This document shows, in pieces, positions 8,361 through 35,418 of a stretch of 35,848 nucleotides of DNA. The position numbers were made by a program, and so were the translations under genes. The DNA lies in the IMG/VR virus record IMGVR_UViG_3300025467_000038, positions 1-35,848 of that record; one strand, given 5' to 3'. Positions within the stretch are counted from its first letter, which is position 1. Every line of letters begins with the position of its first letter. Under the pieces are notes generated by a model. It was given only the letters and a program-made list of their open reading frames with translations. It was not told the DNA's origin and did not search any database. The stretch comes from a virus.

Positions 8361-10676
8361 ATGGCAACTTTACGTACTATACAATCTCCTGGTGTACAAA
8401 TTAGAGAAGTAGATCTAAGCCAAACAGCGACTTCCCCAAACGGAACAAGCGTGTTTATCGCAGGTTTTGCAGCTCAAGGACCAACGTCCGAAATTGTAAC
8501 ACTTACATCTGTTTCTGATTTCGCTAATATATACGGTACACCAACAAATGCCGCTGAACGTTATTTTTATTATTCTGTACAACAACAGTTTACAGGCGGT
8601 ACAAACGCTCAAGTACAGGTTGCTCGCTTACCATACGGTCCTGCGTTAGGAGATGGTTTTTCAGATAAATACAGTGCTTTAGTTTACCCAGTAGTACCTG
8701 TAACAAATTCAACCCCGCTTTCTGCTGCAGTACAAGCCGGATATACAGCATTATTAAGTAATGCAACATCATATTATTTCGGTCAACCAACATTAATAAC
8801 ACTTTCAGAAACTGATTACATTAATTTAAAGCAAAATAACTTATTCTGGAGTGCAAGTGCAGGTGGTAATTATCCTACAATTGCCGGATTCGATAGCCTC
8901 TCTGGTACAGGTTACGGATTAAACGGTGTTGGTATGATTGTTGTAAATGAAGCACAAACAACTATCAACGAAAAGTTCGAAGGCTTCTATTTTAATATTG
9001 CTGAAATCAACGCAATTAATCCAAGTACTCCTTATAAAGAAGTACAGGCTTTACACACAATTAATGCTAATGGTACATTAGATATAACAAATTCTCCAGT
9101 AGTTGGCTTCCAACTTTCTGCTACAGCAGGTAGTAACATTGACAGCGTATCTCGTACGATTGAAAATATTCCTACATATGACCTAACAATTAGCTCAACA
9201 GTAGGTTCAACAAGCTATAGCGATATTGCTATTCTTTCATTAATAAAAGTTAAAACAACACCTTTTGCTGCTAACCCATTACAATTAACTTATGGTTTAC
9301 AAGAAGGTCATTCAGTATCGTTCTATTCTAACCGTTTAATTCAGGACGTTAACGGCGGTGCTCCTAAGAACGATTTTGCTGAAACAGTAATTAATAACAA
9401 TTCAGCAAACATTTCCGTATATATTAATCCTTATATTGCTAATCAAACAGCCTGGATTGATAATAACGGTAATGCGGTAAAATCAGTAAGAGTAATAAAG
9501 ACAAGTGACGTAACCACTTCACCATCTATACTTGCTGCAGGCTATCAAGCAGCTGATGCATTATTCCCATTAGGTAATTATGCTGAGTCTTTAAATTTAA
9601 GTAACTCTAGTACTAAGCGAATCGGTGACTTACCTAACAAATTAAACTACGTATTAAATCAATTAGTAAATACTGATGTATATAACGTAGATGTAGTTGT
9701 TGATGCAGGTCTTTCTACTATCAATGCATTTGCCGGTGGAGACGGGTTTTTTGATGATACCGCTTATACAGCAACTATTAATTCTGATTTAACTAACCTG
9801 TTTACTAACGACGGTACGTTTAGCTTCAGCGGTAACGGTACAGCTACAGGCTGGAAAGCAGTTACTGACATCTTCAGTCAATTTGCTGGCGATCAACGCA
9901 AAGATTGCGTGTATATCTCTGATCCATTACGTAGTATTTTTATACAGGGTGCAAACTTTAAGACCCTAGACGATAAGACAACAAACTTCTCGAACAACAT
10001 TTACTGGCCTTTACGTAACTGTTACAATCCTTATAACACAAGCTATACAATTGCTTACGGTAACTGGGGTGCAGTACAAGACGTATTCACTAATAAATTA
10101 GTTTGGGTACCGTTCTCAGGCTATGCTGCAGCAACATTTACAAAGAATGATGCAGTAGCTTATCCTTGGGGTGCACCTGCTGGTTTAAATCGTGGTACTA
10201 TTACAGGTCTTGTAGATATTGCGTTGAATCCAAATCAAAAACAACGCGATCTACTTTATAAGATTTCTATTAACCCTGTAGTGAACTTCCCTAATGAAGG
10301 TCTATCAATCTACGGACAAAAGACAATGTTAAAAGCTCCAAGCGCTTTTGATCGTATTAACGTTCGTCGTTTATTCCTCTTCTTAGAAAAGTCAGTACTT
10401 AATACTTCAAAACTTTTCGTATTTGAACCTAATACAACATTTACACGTAGTAGATTAGTTAATACTATTACTCCTGTATTTGAATTAGCTAAAAATACTC
10501 AAGGTCTTTACGATTACAAAATCATTTGCAATGATACCAACAACACTCCAGATACTATCGATCAAAATGAGCTTGTTGTAGATATCTACATTAAACCAGT
10601 TCGTACTGCTGAGTTTATCTTAGTGAACTTCTATTGCACTAAGACATCTCAAGACTTTAACGAATTACTACAATAA
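8361..10676 (+). CDS. Contractile tail sheath protein (gp18-like)
   Basis: A 771-residue protein opening with the typical sheath N-terminus SPGVQIREVDLS and a following ...GTSVFIAGFAAQGP segment. The C-terminal region holds the conserved core: KDCVYISDPLRS, WPLRNCYNPYN, WVPFSGYAAATFTKND, NPVVNFPNEGLSIYGQKT and RRLFLFLEKS. T4 gp18 is 659 residues; the extra length lies in the middle, as expected for surface-exposed insertion domains. The sheath polymerises around the tube and contracts to drive it through the envelope. It has its own octamer promoter and is followed directly by the tube gene, the standard gp18-gp19 order. Confidence 0.96.
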   Translation: MATLRTIQSPGVQIREVDLSQTATSPNGTSVFIAGFAAQGPTSEIVTLTSVSDFANIYGTPTNAAERYFYYSVQQQFTGGTNAQVQVARLPYGPALGDGFSDKYSALVYPVVPVTNSTPLSAAVQAGYTALLSNATSYYFGQPTLITLSETDYINLKQNNLFWSASAGGNYPTIAGFDSLSGTGYGLNGVGMIVVNEAQTTINEKFEGFYFNIAEINAINPSTPYKEVQALHTINANGTLDITNSPVVGFQLSATAGSNIDSVSRTIENIPTYDLTISSTVGSTSYSDIAILSLIKVKTTPFAANPLQLTYGLQEGHSVSFYSNRLIQDVNGGAPKNDFAETVINNNSANISVYINPYIANQTAWIDNNGNAVKSVRVIKTSDVTTSPSILAAGYQAADALFPLGNYAESLNLSNSSTKRIGDLPNKLNYVLNQLVNTDVYNVDVVVDAGLSTINAFAGGDGFFDDTAYTATINSDLTNLFTNDGTFSFSGNGTATGWKAVTDIFSQFAGDQRKDCVYISDPLRSIFIQGANFKTLDDKTTNFSNNIYWPLRNCYNPYNTSYTIAYGNWGAVQDVFTNKLVWVPFSGYAAATFTKNDAVAYPWGAPAGLNRGTITGLVDIALNPNQKQRDLLYKISINPVVNFPNEGLSIYGQKTMLKAPSAFDRINVRRLFLFLEKSVLNTSKLFVFEPNTTFTRSRLVNTITPVFELAKNTQGLYDYKIICNDTNNTPDTIDQNELVVDIYIKPVRTAEFILVNFYCTKTSQDFNELLQ

Positions 10677-24369: not shown

Positions 24370-25101
24370 TTAGAACTTGAATTTGTAACCAACGTTATAA
24401 CCAGTGATTTGAGCAGCTGAGTCTGTTAATGAGGTGCGTTGTGCAAATAAGTTTGCATTGATACCGTGCCAATCAAGACCAATACCTGGTTGATAGTACT
24501 TCTTAACGTTCTTAAGAGCAGCAATTGTAGCAGCGCCTGGATCATTGAAACCAACAACTAGTGCTGGAACAATTTTAAGAGCACCAAATGTATTGATTGG
24601 TGTGTTAACACCGAATTCAAAATTGTTGCTACGATTAACTGTATCGTTAAGAGCGCGGCCTTGCCAGTTAAGATGACCACCAAACCAGCTACCACTTAAT
24701 TTAACAAATGGTAAGAAGTTGTGATTAGCTTGACCAGTAGCTTCTGCTGCATTTACGTGTCTTAATTCTGCACCGAGTGTTAAGTCAGCGAGAGGAGACG
24801 TGAATTTATAACCAGCATCAAGATAAACGCGCTTTAGACCAGATGCATCGGTTGTTGATACTGTTTTACCAGCTACAACTGATGTTGTGGTTGTGTCGCT
24901 AACTTTGTCAAATGCTGTTACAGCAAGATCAATGCCGTATACATTTGTACCAACGCCAGCTGTTGCATAGTTAGTACCGACTAATAGACCTTGTTGGATT
25001 AGCTTTGAGGTAAATCCGACATCTAAGTCACCGCTAACTGGAGCAGCTTTTACAACGATTGCGATTAATGACAATGCGAGGAATGTTAATAGTTTCTTCA
25101 T
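24370..25101 (-). CDS. Outer-membrane beta-barrel protein with signal peptide
   Basis: A 243-residue protein. Residues 1-19 are a clear signal peptide (MKKLLTFLALSLIAIVVKA, cleavage before APVSG). The mature part alternates polar and hydrophobic residues in strands about 10 long (IDLAVTAFD, RVYLDAGYKF, LTLGAELRHV, NFEFGVNTPI, IGLDWHGINANLFAQ). It ends in a beta strand with terminal Phe (GYNVGYKFKF), the classical BAM-recognised C-terminus. Length suggests about 8-12 strands. It is preceded by an exact T4 late octamer and followed by a strong terminator, so it is a dedicated late transcript. Roles could include blocking receptors (superinfection exclusion) or porin-like change of the host surface; neither is shown by sequence. 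Confidence 0.87.
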   Translation of the reverse strand: MKKLLTFLALSLIAIVVKAAPVSGDLDVGFTSKLIQQGLLVGTNYATAGVGTNVYGIDLAVTAFDKVSDTTTTSVVAGKTVSTTDASGLKRVYLDAGYKFTSPLADLTLGAELRHVNAAEATGQANHNFLPFVKLSGSWFGGHLNWQGRALNDTVNRSNNFEFGVNTPINTFGALKIVPALVVGFNDPGAATIAALKNVKKYYQPGIGLDWHGINANLFAQRTSLTDSAAQITGYNVGYKFKF

Positions 25102-26146: not shown

Positions 26147-26225
26147 ACAAATACTTACTTGGGTTTCTTAAATAATATTAAGAAAATCCATAGGAATAAA
26201 CTATCACTTCTATTTGGATTAAGAA

Positions 26226-26307: not shown

Positions 26308-26690
26308 TGGTGGACCTGCCGGGTACTGCCCCCGGGTGTTCTGTAATGTTCTTATCAGTTTCTACAAGCTTATCATTACTAATAAGATGTATACCCGTAA
26401 TGCTAGTATACAAATTGTTTGGTAGTATTCCTGCTATTCTACTACCATTGAATAGTCAGTCTCGCTGAATGACGGTTATAGTATATAGCGAGAATCTATA
26501 TTATAACCGATCGAGCTTAAGCAGCTGCGAGTGCGAAGCTTTCGCCGAATGAAAGAGATTCTTTCACGGAAGCGACTGCGTTCTTGAGGCTTTGAATGAT
26601 GCCGTTTGTTTTTGTAGTAATTTATAAAGGATTTACTAATCCTGCTTGCTTCTAATACATCTGCCACAGAGTCGAATCTGGTACAGGCCC
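26308..26690 (-). ncRNA. ssrA: Transfer-messenger RNA (tmRNA), one-piece, with 18-residue tag
   Basis: A 383-nt tmRNA that rescues stalled ribosomes and tags the nascent protein. The tRNA-like ends pair perfectly (GGGCCTG with CAGGTCC), with the G3-T70 pair and A73 that identify alanine, and CCA is encoded. The 5' side has the D-arm segment CAGATTCGAC. The T stem CCGGG/CCCGG has an atypical loop, GGCAGTA. The tag frame (26517-26573) starts after CAGTC, like TAGTC in E. coli, and reads ASVKESLSFGESFALAAA then TAA. Four pseudoknots can be drawn: PK1 26614-26642, PK2 26461-26509 (CTCGCT/AGCGAG), PK3 26421-26455 (CTATTC/GAATAG, GGTAGTA/TACTACC) and PK4 26374-26412 (CATTAC/GTAATG). The order is normal, not permuted. 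A few phages are known to carry tmRNA. Confidence 0.96.
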
Positions 26691-26710
26691 ATTAAAATAT
26701 GTTAAAGAAC

Positions 26711-26718
26711 TATAAGTA
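26711..26718 (+). promoter_or_regulatory. Late-promoter-like octamer TATAAGTA
   Basis: TATAAGTA, 16 nt before ATG 26735. The same short spacer (26691-26734) must also hold the promoter of the divergent tmRNA, which I could not pin down. Confidence 0.45.
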
Positions 26719-26734
26719 ATATAATATATTTACA

Positions 26735-27133
26735 ATGAATAGCAACTTAAAAGTTTTAGCGGAGCAATATCAAACAATACTCGAAAAACGTGTTCAACCT
26801 GAACCAGAAACAGAAGAGTCGTTTGAACAGTTCTTAACTAAAAGAGCTGCGGGTGCTGCTAAAATTGCTCATAGTTCAAAAGAAAAGGGTGGGTTTGCTA
26901 CTTTAACAGCTATTCATTTTGCTGCTAAAGCTAAACCTTATAAAGAATCAGAGCAGTGGGCTACTAAAGAAGGTAAAGACGCACATTACAAAAAAATGGC
27001 AGAAGAAGTTTATGCTAAATTAGCAAATTTAGATAAACTATCTCAAAAAGAGTTTCAAGCTCTTATGGGTGAGCTGGAAGTTTGGGGCGAAGTATATATT
27101 CGCTCAACTAAGCCTGAAAGTTTAAAGATTTAA
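26735..27133 (+). CDS. Helical phage protein, unknown
   Basis: A 132-residue, charged, alpha-helical protein (MNSNLKVLAEQYQTILEKRV...). The middle has FLTKRAAGAAKIAHSSKEKGGFA and AIHFAAKAKPYKESEQW. The C-terminal part reads KEFQALMGELEVWGEVYIRSTKPES. No membrane segment, metal site or catalytic motif is visible. It stands alone between the divergent tmRNA and the convergent tRNA-Gly, whose CCA end lies 2 nt past its stop codon. No function assigned. Confidence 0.8.
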   Translation: MNSNLKVLAEQYQTILEKRVQPEPETEESFEQFLTKRAAGAAKIAHSSKEKGGFATLTAIHFAAKAKPYKESEQWATKEGKDAHYKKMAEEVYAKLANLDKLSQKEFQALMGELEVWGEVYIRSTKPESLKI

Positions 27134-27233: not shown

Positions 27234-28238
27234 TTACTTTTTCCAGCTGTCTCTATCGTAATTAAAGCGTTCAAACCATTCCTGCATATTCTCATAAACC
27301 ATATCAGCTAATTCTTGAGTATAAAACGAACGCCAATCTTCGCTATATAAGGTATACAAATCTATAAGCTTTACTTTTTCTTTAAACCCGTCAGGCACTA
27401 TGAAAAAGTTTCTTAAAAAGGTTTTTAATTTATTGTCGGGTATTTCTTTAAGCTGTCCGTATAATTTTTTTAACTGTATCTGAGAATAACTTTTAGGGGT
27501 AGTTTTAAAAATAGCATTGTATATTTTCGGGTTATTTTCTATAAAACTAGTAAAATAATTTGTATTATAATTGTCAAATAAAGTTAAACATACAATTACA
27601 TATTTTAATAAAGTACTGTTATACTGTGTAGTACAAGGATTAGTTGTATTAAGCTTAGTTACACCGGGTACTTTGAGTATATCTTCTTTATAGTTTTCTA
27701 AACGTACAATATAATCTATTTTTTCTGGTAGTTTTTTAGGTTTGTACAAAACTACCTTACCGTCATCAACGTATTTTTGAGCTATCTTTTTATTTTTACT
27801 AATCTTCATCCAATCTTTAAATGAATCTAAGACTGGCGGATTCGATAGGTAAACTTTTGTTGCAGTAGTACCATCCTCGCCGTTTTTTACTTCATCAAAC
27901 CACAAAGGCATTTTATCTAATATGTCTAAATACGGACTGTATGGTCTGATAGCCAAGGATTGTGCTAACTTCCATTGAGAAAAAACTAAAGTATAAGGAT
28001 TACGCACATTAACTATAACTGGGTATTTGGAGTACTCTTCTGGTATTTCAAGGGCGTGGGTGTAAGGTCTAGCACCGGCAAATGTATGGCCGTTTGTCTG
28101 GACTATATTGATACCATTAAGGTGCATAGTATCAAACGTTGCTCTAGATCCAGTACGAGGCGGTAAAAGCCAAATATGATCGTTAGATAAGAAATTCATA
28201 CCGCTACTTACCCGTTGTGGTAAAAAATTAAATGTCAT
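27234..28238 (-). CDS. Sulfotransferase-fold protein 1
   Basis: A 334-residue protein. The 5'-PAPS-binding loop is WLLPPRTGSRATFDTM (R28-T29-G30-S31-R32). The 3'-phosphate motif is VIVNVRNPYTLVFSQW (R79, N80, P81, S87). These are the two cofactor signatures of the sulfotransferase superfamily, which moves sulfate from PAPS to sugars, lipids or tyrosines. The middle (~residues 100-290) is larger than in the two relatives downstream. The C-terminus, LADMVYENMQEWFERFNYD then RDSWKK, is shared with both. The start at 28238 abuts the divergent octamer of the SGNH-like gene. Acceptor unknown; a phage or host glycan is plausible. Confidence 0.8.
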   Translation of the reverse strand: MTFNFLPQRVSSGMNFLSNDHIWLLPPRTGSRATFDTMHLNGINIVQTNGHTFAGARPYTHALEIPEEYSKYPVIVNVRNPYTLVFSQWKLAQSLAIRPYSPYLDILDKMPLWFDEVKNGEDGTTATKVYLSNPPVLDSFKDWMKISKNKKIAQKYVDDGKVVLYKPKKLPEKIDYIVRLENYKEDILKVPGVTKLNTTNPCTTQYNSTLLKYVIVCLTLFDNYNTNYFTSFIENNPKIYNAIFKTTPKSYSQIQLKKLYGQLKEIPDNKLKTFLRNFFIVPDGFKEKVKLIDLYTLYSEDWRSFYTQELADMVYENMQEWFERFNYDRDSWKK

Positions 28239-28252: not shown

Positions 28253-28999
28253 GTGCAACAATTAGACCATAAAGATAAAAGTGTGTGGGCTAATGGCCTA
28301 TACAAAAATATAGCTAATACTGAAGTAGAGTGGCTTAGAATGGATTCTAAGGAAAGATTTACAGAGCATTTAAAGACTCGTAAAGATAATTTGCAAAAGT
28401 ATGGATGGTTAGATACTAAATTTACATATAAGTTTAATAAGGATGGGTTTAGAAGCATAGAGTTTATGCAAAACCCAGATATAATGTTTTTAGGTTGTAG
28501 TTACACGCTCGGTATCGGTCTACCAGTAGAATGTACCTGGCCCGATATAGTTACTAAAGCATTAAATATAAAAAGCGTTAACTTAGGAATAGGTGGTGGA
28601 GCAATAGATACTTTTTTTAGGATTAGCTTACACTGGATAAATAAATTAAAACCTAAAACTGTAGTGCTTTATGTACCGTTCAAAGAGAGATTAGAAATCA
28701 TAAGAAATAACGGGTATATATATCTGTCGTCCCATTATTTTGAACAATATAATGTTTTTCTTGAAGATTGGTTTGCAAATCGAGAAAACTCTTATTTTAA
28801 TTACTTAAAAAACGTTTTAGCTATAAAACAGGTATGCCAAGATAATAACACTAAGCTAATTGTGTTTGACGAGACTCCCGAACGTATAGATTTTGCTAGA
28901 GATTTGTCTCACCCGGGGGTAGAGACAAATAAACTTATTGCTCAAATTGCATTAAAGCATATTGAGAGTAATCAAGATTTCCAGCTATCTTTTGAATAA
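28253..28999 (+). CDS. SGNH/GDSL-like hydrolase
   Basis: A 248-residue protein starting at GTG (MQQLDHKDKSVWANG). Block I is IMFLGCSYTLGIGLP with G81-C82-S83, i.e. Cys where the family name-giving motif has Asp but with the nucleophile Ser kept. Block II is NLGIGGGAIDTFFR. The C-terminal D-x-x-H is DLSHPGVETN (~D216, H219), so the catalytic Ser-Asp-His could form. Family members deacetylate or de-esterify sugars and lipids. It is the only plus-strand gene in the sulfotransferase cassette: divergent from protein 1 and convergent with protein 2, overlapping that gene by 28 bp at the 3' ends. Removing acyl groups before sulfation is a possible joint role, inferred from position only. Confidence 0.78.
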   Translation: MQQLDHKDKSVWANGLYKNIANTEVEWLRMDSKERFTEHLKTRKDNLQKYGWLDTKFTYKFNKDGFRSIEFMQNPDIMFLGCSYTLGIGLPVECTWPDIVTKALNIKSVNLGIGGGAIDTFFRISLHWINKLKPKTVVLYVPFKERLEIIRNNGYIYLSSHYFEQYNVFLEDWFANRENSYFNYLKNVLAIKQVCQDNNTKLIVFDETPERIDFARDLSHPGVETNKLIAQIALKHIESNQDFQLSFE

Positions 29000-29682
29000 C
29001 CAAATGCAGTAAAATCTGCTTGATAAGCTTTATACACTACGTCTGCTAAGACTTGTGAAGTATATGCGGCTTTCCAGGATAGGTTATTAATATTAATATG
29101 ATGATATCTATCAGTGTAGATATTCATTCTGTAAGCCCAATTATTAACTATACCCGGTATAACTGTACTTAACCCCGTTACACTCGCACTTAAACTTTCT
29201 AAACGTACGAAATTAACATTAGCTAAATCAATACCGGCTACGGCTAGTTGATCAGTGATTTGTCCGCGTGATACTCCTATCAAAGGTGAACCACTGGTTG
29301 GTGTAAAGTAAGTCCAACAACCCTTGTCTGCAGTAGGAGAAGCTGAAAGCGGTTGAGACCATATACCTGTAGCATCTCTATTGAGAATAAAAGAATCAAA
29401 CGCAACAGTGGGTACTCCTTTAGCGGTTAAAAATTTATTAACGTGTAACCAATCTGTAAACACAATGTCGTATGGGTTTCTTATAGTACAAACGATCGTT
29501 TTGTATGTAGTGCCAGCTGGAATAGCAAAATTACGAGTAAACTCTACAGGGGCTGCAGACACGCCTGTTGTTAATACGGATTGCTCATCGTTAATTTCAC
29601 TTAAATATGAATAAAGAGATCTTGAACCTGTAAAAGAAGGCGCGAGTTGTACTGTAGATAAAGCTGGATAAAATATGGCCAT
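28972..29682 (-). CDS. Sulfotransferase-fold protein 2 (diverged)
   Basis: A 236-residue protein from ATG 29682 (MAIFYPALSTVQLAPSFTGS). An upstream TTG at 29697 would add five residues but lies within the octamer promoter. The cofactor loop is SFTGSRS (G19-S20-R21), with Ser-Phe in place of the Pro-Arg or Pro-x of its relatives. The 3'-motif is IVCTIRNPYDIVFTDW (R68-N69-P70, T76 for Ser). The C-terminus VLADVVYKAYQADFTAFGYS then KDSWKS matches the other two. The middle is Ala/Thr/Ser-rich and lacks most basic residues, so it may be a changed or inactive member. It is the last gene of the 31300-28972 run but has its own octamer. Confidence 0.75.
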   Translation of the reverse strand: MAIFYPALSTVQLAPSFTGSRSLYSYLSEINDEQSVLTTGVSAAPVEFTRNFAIPAGTTYKTIVCTIRNPYDIVFTDWLHVNKFLTAKGVPTVAFDSFILNRDATGIWSQPLSASPTADKGCWTYFTPTSGSPLIGVSRGQITDQLAVAGIDLANVNFVRLESLSASVTGLSTVIPGIVNNWAYRMNIYTDRYHHININNLSWKAAYTSQVLADVVYKAYQADFTAFGYSKDSWKS

Positions 29683-29687
29683 AACTA

Positions 29688-29695
29688 TATTTATC
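29688..29695 (-). promoter_or_regulatory. Late-promoter-like octamer GATAAATA
   Basis: GATAAATA on the minus strand, 5 nt before ATG 29682. It decides for this ATG against the upstream TTG. Confidence 0.55.
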
Positions 29696-29697
29696 AA

Positions 29698-30072
29698 TTA
29701 TTGAACGCCTTTTAAATACGGACAAGAGAAGTTTTTACATATATTTGGACGTATTTCATACACACTACAACATTTTAGCGTTGAATTATAAAATATACAA
29801 GGCTTTCTAACGTGTTTATTATCAACTCTTAGCGCAGGATAATGAGACGGATTCTGATAAAAAGATCTCTCCGGAAACAGTTTAGAACCTTCCTCATATT
29901 CTAAAAATACATCTTCTTTTTGTACATTAATACCAGAAAACTTTAACTTGAGTCTATTTAAAAATTGTTCTGAGTCGTCGATAGGACCTATTATAAAGTC
30001 TCTATCGTCAAGCTGACAGCAACCACCGTGGTTGCCTTCAAATCCTAAACATTTTTCACTACAATGGTTCAT
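29698..30072 (-). CDS. YkgJ-like zinc/iron-chelating cysteine-cluster protein
   Basis: A 124-residue protein. Clustered cysteines sit at both ends: CSEKCLGFEGNHGGCCQLDD near the N-terminus and KPCIFYNSTLKCCSVYEIRP then NICKNFSCPYLKG at the C-terminus. The C-C-x-(I/V)-Y-x-x-R-P-x-x-C-(K/R)-x-F pattern is the signature of the YkgJ/CxxCxxCC family, thought to bind zinc or an iron-sulfur cluster. Biochemical role in phages is unknown. The start overlaps the upstream sulfotransferase-like stop (ATGA), so translation is coupled, and it sits between sulfotransferase-like proteins 2 and 3. A redox or maturation partner for the cassette is a guess. Confidence 0.82.
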   Translation of the reverse strand: MNHCSEKCLGFEGNHGGCCQLDDRDFIIGPIDDSEQFLNRLKLKFSGINVQKEDVFLEYEEGSKLFPERSFYQNPSHYPALRVDNKHVRKPCIFYNSTLKCCSVYEIRPNICKNFSCPYLKGVQ

Positions 30073-30722
30073 CGCTTCCAGCTATTTTTTTCGTAGCCTA
30101 ATTTTTCAAATTGATGTTTATATGCATCGTAAACTAAATCTGCAAGTCTAGAATTATACATATAATAAGTTTTCCAATCAGCATAGTTACCAGTTCTTCT
30201 TAAATCGCCTCGAGGGTCATCTACCCCTTCGTATTTGTACTGATTGTTTAAAATATTAGAAATAAAGTCCATTTGTACAAATGGTGAGTCTATTTCAACG
30301 AAAGGTATTTTTTTAATATCTTCTTGTAAATTCTCGTATCGTATAAAATGCTTCGGTTTAAACTTTTCTATAGAGTTTTCATAATGGTCCATTATACCTT
30401 CTGGGTTCTTTAGCACAAACTGTTCAAAATCGCATAATACTTTTAACTCTCCTTTTTGTTCTTTAAAACAAGATAAATGCCAAGATGAAACCGCCCTTGA
30501 GTACGGGTTTCGTATTTGCATTATAATAGGGTAACTAGTCTTGTCAGCGGGTACGTCGTAAGAATGGGTATGCGCTACATATCTTATATTAGACTTATCG
30601 CTAAATTTTGAATCTAATTCGTAGTTATAAAAATCGTAATGTTTAAATATTTCACTAACAGCTCTAGAACCACATCGCGGACTAGCCCACCATATATAAC
30701 CTACTTTATCAGAAACGTTCAT
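30069..30722 (-). CDS. Sulfotransferase-fold protein 3
   Basis: A 217-residue protein from ATG 30722, which overlaps the methyltransferase stop as ATGA; the frame is open seven codons further upstream, but the overlap supports this start. The cofactor loop is YIWWASPRCGSRAVSEIF (R16-C17-G18-S19-R20). The 3'-motif is IIMQIRNPYSRAVSSW (R71-N72-P73, S79/S80). An AHTHSYD segment follows the loop region. The C-terminus RLADLVYDAYKHQFEKLGYE then KNSWKR is the shared ending of the trio. It is the most canonical of the three and close to single-domain size. It is coupled on both sides: methyltransferase upstream, YkgJ-like downstream. Confidence 0.82.
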   Translation of the reverse strand: MNVSDKVGYIWWASPRCGSRAVSEIFKHYDFYNYELDSKFSDKSNIRYVAHTHSYDVPADKTSYPIIMQIRNPYSRAVSSWHLSCFKEQKGELKVLCDFEQFVLKNPEGIMDHYENSIEKFKPKHFIRYENLQEDIKKIPFVEIDSPFVQMDFISNILNNQYKYEGVDDPRGDLRRTGNYADWKTYYMYNSRLADLVYDAYKHQFEKLGYEKNSWKR

Positions 30723-31300
30723 AACTTCTGATACACCCAGCAATACTCTCCTGACACAACCTGTAAACCTGGCGAATATTGAAAAAATTCGTCTACAGCT
30801 TTTTTAACGCCTGGAAATTTATGTCCGTGTTCAGGGTCAGAAGGATCAAAATAATCGTGTCCTGCAATAATACCACCTTTGCGTAGTTTCATATACCAGG
30901 CATCTAGATCAGCTTTTACATCCTCATATTCGTGACTGGCATCAATAAAAATAAAGTCTATAGATTTGTCAGGATAAGTTTTAGCAGCTTCTAAAGAAGC
31001 CATACGAATTGGATTGATAATGTGCTTTACCGGCTGCATATTCTCTAAAAACTGCATATATAGAGCATTCTGTTCATCTGGTTTTAAGTTATGCTCTACA
31101 CTACCTTGCCAGGTATCTATAACGTCAAACTTAATATTTTTACCGGAATTAGCTATTTCTACGGCTGCAAATGCAGTAGATTGTCCCATCCAAGCGCCTA
31201 CTTCAACCATATGAGAACCTTCTTGCATACAACCTATAACTGTCTTGTATAAACTAGGGAATGTAAACCAACCCTGTATATTCCAGTAATAATGATCCAT
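30719..31300 (-). CDS. SAM-dependent methyltransferase (class I)
   Basis: A 193-residue protein of the Methyltransf_24 type. Motif I is MVEVGAWMGQSTAFAAVEIA (residues ~31-50, the SAM-binding Gly loop). FDVIDTW gives the acidic residue that binds the ribose. IDFIFIDASHEYEDVKADLD and GGIIAGHDYFDP follow, typical of sugar or small-molecule O-methyltransferases with a metal site. The substrate is unknown. It is the first gene of the coupled set methyltransferase - sulfotransferase 3 - YkgJ, with an octamer 9 nt upstream. Together with the sulfotransferases it suggests glycan decoration by methylation and sulfation (inference). Confidence 0.85.
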   Translation of the reverse strand: MDHYYWNIQGWFTFPSLYKTVIGCMQEGSHMVEVGAWMGQSTAFAAVEIANSGKNIKFDVIDTWQGSVEHNLKPDEQNALYMQFLENMQPVKHIINPIRMASLEAAKTYPDKSIDFIFIDASHEYEDVKADLDAWYMKLRKGGIIAGHDYFDPSDPEHGHKFPGVKKAVDEFFQYSPGLQVVSGEYCWVYQKL

Positions 31301-34704: not shown

Positions 34705-35418
34705 TCACTCAGCAGAAGCTACAAAGTCATAAAATTCTTTACGAGTTTGTGGTTCGTTCATAAAATCCCCGGATAGCTTAGAGGTAATCATAGCACATCC
34801 GTGATGTTTTACACCGCGGTGACAAGCGCAGGTATGAGCACACTTAAGAATAACTGCTACACCTTGGTTACCAGTACATAACTGATCAATTGCTTGATGT
34901 ATCTGAACAGTTAACCCTTCCTGGATTTGAGGGCGGCGTGCGTAATGCTCTACAATACGATTAAGCTTTGATAAACCAATAACTTGACCGTTCTTATCAG
35001 GAATGTAGGCTACGTGAGCTACACCAGTAAATGCTAAGTGGTGATGAGAACACATAGACACAACAGGTATATTCATCTGACTCACAATACCATCATAGCC
35101 ATCTGATGGAAAAGTAGTAATCTTTGGCGGACCTTCATAGCAACCTTTAATAAGGTCACATACATAAGCCTTAGCTACACGACGAGGGGTATCAGCACTA
35201 TTGACGTCATTACGCCAATCAATGCGTAAAGCATCTAGAAATGTTGAATACGCTTCTGCTGCTTTATCAATAATTGCTTTCCTATCTTCTTCTGTAGTAA
35301 GCATACTACTATTAGCTGTAGGAAGTGTTGGGTGTTTAACTTCGTTTGACATATTAAAAGATTTTACGGACTTAAACTTTTCGCCCGATGTATAACTCTG
35401 ATTTGTTGTTGATTCCAT
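34705..35418 (-). CDS. folE: GTP cyclohydrolase I
   Basis: A 237-residue enzyme that turns GTP into dihydroneopterin triphosphate and formate, the first step to folates and to 7-deazaguanines. Zinc ligands are visible: MCSHHH (C123, H126) and HTCACHRGV (C197). The core follows E. coli FolE closely: [31 protein letters not shown] and ITSKLSGDF. The N-terminal ~30 residues are unconserved; ATG 35352 ([11 protein letters not shown]) is an alternative start that avoids the 47-nt overlap with the upstream gene. In phages it often serves deazaguanine DNA modification or nucleotide synthesis; no other pathway gene is in the window. Confidence 0.95.

Follow-up and report, generated by a model that had tools for sequence, protein, structure and literature searches.

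A phage-encoded one-piece tmRNA with an alternative D-loop/T-loop elbow

The viral record analysed here, a stretch of 35,848 bases referred to as the window, carries a genuine phage tmRNA that is a new member by sequence, and the unusual part of this RNA is the elbow formed by its D-loop and T-loop, which an earlier note on this DNA had overlooked. As a whole, the data are best explained by a working one-piece phage tmRNA that would use the AlaRS and SmpB of its host and that has an alternative elbow (probability roughly 0.8).

A complete tmRNA at this locus had been proposed in the earlier note, together with a covariance-model search as a check; both its position and its strand were correct. 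The Rfam model RF00023 matched the reverse strand from 26690 to 26308 over its full length (model positions 1–374 of 374) with a significant 57.2 bits, above the gathering score of 47 (E = 9.3e-22 for 701 bases searched), in a search that made the match visible with permissive filters only; neither ARAGORN nor an Rfam scan run with default filters over the whole window reported a tmRNA. The tmRNA strand had a minimum free energy of -108 kcal/mol (z = -4.5 against dinucleotide shuffles). The parts of the gene are listed in Table 1 and include, as previously described, the G3-U70 alanine pair with its CCA end, and a CAGTC resume context followed by GCT and an in-frame tag. The conserved element upstream of the gene is probably a promoter or leader, a role that we infer, since a consensus promoter scan counted no more sites than in shuffles.

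Table 1. Features of the tmRNA locus in the window.
Feature	Position	Strand	Evidence
One-piece tmRNA gene (ssrA), 383 nt including CCA	26308–26690	-	Full RF00023 model; 78-pair covarying structure in 18 tmRNAs
Acceptor stem 5' strand GGGCCTG, with G3	26684–26690	-	Invariant in 18/18 aligned tmRNAs
Acceptor 3' strand CAGGTCC (U70 pairs with G3), discriminator A, CCA	26308–26318	-	Sequence and alignment
D-loop equivalents of A18-G19 (canonical G18-G19)	26678–26679	-	Covaries with T-loop position 55
T-arm CCGGG-GGCAGTA-CCCGG, non-canonical T-loop (G54 G55 C56 A57 G58)	26319–26335	-	
Tag frame ASVKESLSFGESFALAAA and TAA; resume codon GCT after CAGTC	26517–26573	-	
Pseudoknot 1 (GGATT/AATCC, AGTA/TACT)	26616–26642	-	Double changes in both stems (helices 5–6)
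Pseudoknot 2	26460–26509	-	Helices 7–8, helix 8 invariant
Pseudoknot 3	26421–26455	-	Helices 9–11
Pseudoknot 4	26374–26412	-	Helices 12–13
Upstream element TAAATAT.TTATATTACTTAT.GTT.TTTRACATATTTTA	26691–26740	-	Conserved in most of the window clade
tRNA-Glu(ttc), canonical TTC T-loop and GG D-loop	26226–26300	-	7 nt downstream of tmRNA; present or absent among relatives

For the analysis of covariation, 18 tmRNAs were aligned and P1, P2, the T-stem and the four pseudoknots were written down as 78 pairs. In this structure 96.7% of the cells were paired, the measure most favoured by the structure having been drawn from the window sequence. Twenty-five pairs had changed on both sides, compared with 11.1 in column shuffles (none of 500 shuffles reached 25), and when partners were slid by 1–3 columns only 1–4 double-change pairs were found. 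Two of the double-change pairs (CG to AU and CG to GC) lie in the T-stem and occurred in eight of the 18 tmRNAs, with a third in one tmRNA. The acceptor stem of 7 bp, its G3-U70 pair and A73 were invariant, and the CCA was encoded in 16 of the 18. The four pseudoknots recognised in the earlier note showed compensatory changes among the relatives, one of the two stems of pseudoknot 2 being invariant. Together these data are strong evidence that the tmRNA structure is under selection.

Relatives were gathered with a 16-base 5' pattern and with the neighbouring ORF, which is transcribed divergently (26735–27133, + strand) and codes for a 132-aa protein conserved in 29 loci and without a PHROG or Pfam match. 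About 25 freshwater phage contigs carried a related tmRNA beside the same neighbour gene, and the first set cut out contained 13 distinct complete tmRNAs of 381–383 nt. Where the neighbour ORF was at least 69% identical and the contig extended far enough, the tmRNA (at least its 5' end) was present; three contigs with a neighbour ORF of at most 62% identity (L056, L057 and L058) gave no Rfam tmRNA match, and ARAGORN found no tmRNA in L060. In the more distant contig L055 (76%) the locus is occupied by another tmRNA, which has an ordinary elbow and encodes a tag of 23 residues; two further phage relatives (L081 and L119) also had ordinary elbows. All complete members of the window clade have kept G3-U70, the tag frame and the stop codon, with GCT or GCA as the resume codon. 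One clade member (L040, 94–472) has no encoded CCA and is followed by a tRNA-Met gene; the L055 tmRNA likewise lacks an encoded CCA, and its tRNA-rich contig contains a group I intron match at 9902–10090 (- strand; 45.3 bits, short of the 50 bits set as gathering score). The sequence that follows tRNA-Glu in the window (26160–26220, reverse strand ATCCAAATAGAAGTGATAGTTTATTCCTATGGATTTTCT) comes straight after the tmRNA in L004, L007, L011 and L043, so that tRNA-Glu has the look of a cassette gained or lost by insertion or deletion. The idea that the T-arm was acquired together with the downstream tRNA cassette found no support, because relatives with common downstream sequence carry different T-arms.

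Few features of tRNA-like RNAs are as conserved as the D-loop/T-loop elbow, whose structure is thought to be tuned by modification of its uridines. The window tmRNA has neither the T-loop TTCRANT nor the D-loop GG of a canonical elbow: its T-loop reads GGCAGTA, and its D-loop, CAGATTCGAC, has AG instead of the GG that in most tmRNAs is separated by a single base from the TTCGAC that follows. The tRNA numbering used for these residues (Table 1) was inferred by alignment. The tRNA-Glu and tRNA-Gly of the window have ordinary elbows.

To follow the elbow across tmRNAs, a general pattern with an unfixed T-loop was used to collect viral tmRNAs, and a pattern allowing G or T at position 54 and A or G at positions 57 and 58 to collect further viral and bacterial ones, giving 161 sequences that represent a pattern-search sample rather than an exhaustive census. 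Among these distinct sequences, G18/U55 was found in 49, A18/G55 in 105 and G18/G55 in one (L050), while the D-loop was unreadable or different in six. After grouping into 78 clusters by body similarity, 28 were G18/U55 and 47 A18/G55 by majority state, without a mismatch (Fisher test, 3e-21), three clusters with unclear or compensated D-loops having been set aside. As the bacterial sequences in this covariation set were picked by T-loop, its G18/U55 class is viral; canonical bacterial D-loops were read in only three cases. Positions 54 and 58 were U-A or G-G only in the main set, though the pattern permitted mixed forms, and a single C54-A58 (L305) was added by the reciprocal search, in which A18 was fixed and the T-loop left free. 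This search returned 14 distinct viral tmRNAs, nine of them new, and all 14 had G55 C56. Pairing between positions 19 and 56 was kept by compensation in L066, L118 and L140 (A18 U19 with G55 A56) and in L138 (G18 A19 with U55 U56). The covariation of 18/55, 54/58 and 19/56 suggests that the D-loop and T-loop still dock in the window tmRNA.

Both elbow states occur in the window clade. Canonical G18/U55 is present in L051 and L052 and G18/G55 in L050, which shows that the 18/55 covariation is not absolute; A18/G55 is combined with U54-A58 in L035, L040, L002 and others, and with G54-G58 in the window, L001, L004, L011 and L047. Among 58 complete viral tmRNAs found outside the clade by the general search, 47 were G18/UUC, eight A18/G55 and three in rarer states. 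The two outgroup sequences on the tree of tmRNA bodies are G18/U55, which is thus likely ancestral. On this tree there are four changes at position 54 and four, identically distributed, at position 58, suggesting that T-arm states recur or are exchanged; as the clade tree is poorly resolved, with few supported inner branches, only the scatter of T-arm states was used. The A18/G55 elbow, often with G54-G58, was also found in tmRNAs of Saccharibacteria, other Patescibacteria, Melainabacteria and some Clostridia and Bacilli, in genome assemblies that are mostly metagenomic and are not viral contigs. In both phage and bacterial tmRNAs, the alternative elbow seems to be a variant that recurs. We dropped a claim of enrichment in phages and rarity in bacteria, since the search frame catches only about 2–3% of bacterial genomes even for canonical loops and gave three alternative against five canonical elbows in a Patescibacteria sample.

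The earlier note had placed the novelty in the tag, an 18-residue peptide (ASVKESLSFGESFALAAA) ending in ALAAA. The commonest tag length is 10 (PMC11915505). Close relatives at the same locus have tags of 17–18 codons in all complete clade members (ASVKESLSFGESFALAAA, ASVKESLSFSESFALAA(A), ASVMDSFNTSESFALAA(A), ASVMDSFNTSESFALVAA and similar), the tag of L081 has 19, and other tmRNAs met in the analysis have 19–28 residues. The ends ALAA, ALAAA, ALVAA, VLAAA and AFAAA all occur among close relatives. Both length and end being polymorphic in this way, neither was retained as the novel feature, and the third alanine and the varying C-terminal ends give no sign of special design. Two tag types, ASVKESLSF.. 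and ASVMDSFNTS.., are found on one scaffold. The accompanying suggestion of ribosome rescue by the phage is well supported in so far as the gene is complete and plausibly able to rescue.

In the mechanism that we propose, the one-piece tmRNA belongs to a T4-like phage of freshwater, probably a lytic one, and would most likely be charged with alanine by the host AlaRS through G3-U70 and bound by the host SmpB, so that stalled ribosomes could be freed during infection; alanine and the 18-residue tag ending in ALAAA would be added, and the products would be marked for tail-specific proteolysis by the host. SmpB binding needs the D-loop/T-loop interaction, and in the T-loop of E. coli tmRNA m5U is made by TrmA and pseudouridine probably by TruB (PMC3968760). 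In the window tmRNA, A18/G55 would take the place of G18/U55 (pseudouridine) and G54-G58 that of U54-A58, with G19-C56 kept. As positions 54 and 55 are not uridines, TrmA and TruB could not modify them, and the elbow would have to be stable without m5U54 and pseudouridine-55. Four bacterial genomes whose tmRNA has this elbow also encode SmpB, consistent with a functional RNA. A search of 15 related viral records, most of them fragments, gave no SmpB; we therefore take the protein to come from the host, on which the function would then depend.

Several other explanations have to be weighed against this one. The tmRNA could be a decoy whose altered elbow binds SmpB or AlaRS unproductively and inhibits host trans-translation, as proposed for mycobacteriophage DS6A, whose tag-less tRNA-like domain alone inhibits tmRNA (PMC4131195; PMC11915505). 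SmpB does bind at the elbow, but a decoy needs no tag frame, resume context, stop codon or four pseudoknots, all of which are kept with compensatory changes, and the same elbow is used by bacteria with SmpB; we consider this quite unlikely. It is also unlikely, if slightly less so, that the tag is the point, with a changed degradation signal that sends rescued proteins to a different protease or makes them decay more slowly during infection: the two tag types on one scaffold and the variable C-terminus would suit this idea, whereas every end is near the usual ALAA-type signal and the extra alanine is polymorphic. As ssrA is often an integration site (PMC11915505; PMC9004378), a non-functional relic of a host ssrA left by prophage integration was considered as well, but it is contradicted by the covariation of a full-length gene, by the position of this gene among T4-like structural genes, by its conservation at one locus in many contigs, and by relatives in other phage lineages (L055, L081 and L119), and is highly improbable.

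A more serious contender, which we rate at somewhat less than an even chance, is that the RNA is functional and its alternative elbow a neutral variant that behaves like the canonical one and has nothing to do with modification enzymes. Within one phage clade canonical and alternative states interchange, as might be expected of a neutral elbow, and bacteria use both (five canonical and three alternative elbows in a Patescibacteria sample examined with the same search frame). Against this, positions 18/55 and 54/58 have changed in a coupled manner, repeatedly and in many clusters, and intermediates therefore look disfavoured. A broader proposal is that a second, widespread tmRNA elbow (A18/G55, often with G54/G58) works without T-loop uridine modification, that phage lineages pass back and forth between it and the canonical elbow by coupled changes, and that gene finders miss its G54/G55 form, leaving part of the phage repertoire unannotated; we put this forward tentatively, as only just short of an even chance. 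When ARAGORN was run on tmRNA sequences extended by flanks of 100 bases, it detected none of the 46 that have a GGC T-loop, 37 of the 63 TGC forms and 36 of the 49 TTC forms, so that ARAGORN-based counts of tmRNA-bearing phages are probably low. It also missed L051 and L052 despite their ordinary loops, and the T-loop is thus not the sole cause of the misses. The recurrent natural replacement of 18-55 and 54-58, with an intermediate in one phage clade, offers a direct way to probe the role of the elbow and its modification in SmpB binding.

The window contains T4-like terminase, tail sheath and baseplate genes. The terminase and sheath were only about 30–38% identical to those of cyanophages, Rhizobium/Sinorhizobium phages and Mosig and pointed to no host, and the nearest phage DNA in the annotated collection gave a match of only 11% (E = 0.1). 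A 243-aa protein (24370–25101, - strand) matches nothing in PHROG or Pfam; its start resembles a signal peptide and it looks like an outer-membrane protein, which may point to a Gram-negative host. Three proteins encoded on the - strand (27234–28238, 28972–29697 and 30069–30743) have similar C-terminal ends (...DSWKK, DSWKS and NSWKR); one of them matches Sulfotransfer_1, and they are possibly a duplicated sulfotransferase-like family. A GTP cyclohydrolase gene lies at 34705–35418 (- strand; PHROG 2197, E = 8e-62).

Phage tmRNAs are already known, from 402 of 18,146 phage genomes (PMC9004378) and as 79 unique sequences (PMC11915505). With the standard one-piece tmRNA (RF00023) the window tmRNA shares the G3-U70 and CCA acceptor, the reduced D-loop, the long P2, the four pseudoknots, the resume codon, the ALAA-like tag end and the stop codon; it differs in having GGCAGTA and AG instead of TTCRANT and GG, and it scores only 57 bits; default filters remove it and ARAGORN does not report it. 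The mycobacteriophages Bxz1 and Wildcat, Bacillus phage G, OM43 phage Melnitz and Pelagibacter phage Mosig likewise encode tmRNA genes. The tmRNA of Melnitz is two-piece, in contrast to that of the window, and that of Mosig has a permuted gene order and combines A18 with the T-loop TGCAACT, which is window-like at 18/55 but keeps U54-A58. G55 and GG T-loops have published precedent: in the part of PMC1168896 consulted, G replaces U342 (position 55) in Caulobacter tmRNA and GG replaces U341-U342 in the mitochondrial tmRNA of Reclinomonas americana, in both cases on the second chain of a two-piece molecule, unlike the one-piece window tmRNA, and that part makes no mention of a matching D-loop change. 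Unusual purine-purine 54/58 pairs (A54/A58) occur in eukaryotic tRNA-Ala (PMC7566577). In the literature searched, we found no description of D-loop/T-loop covariation of this kind, that is, of coupling between 18/55 and 54/58 in tmRNA. The tmRNAs of the bacterial groups with the window-type A18/G55 elbow differ from the window tmRNA in acceptor stem, tag and body, and two of them (L196 and L191) have a 17-nt T-arm identical to that of the window.
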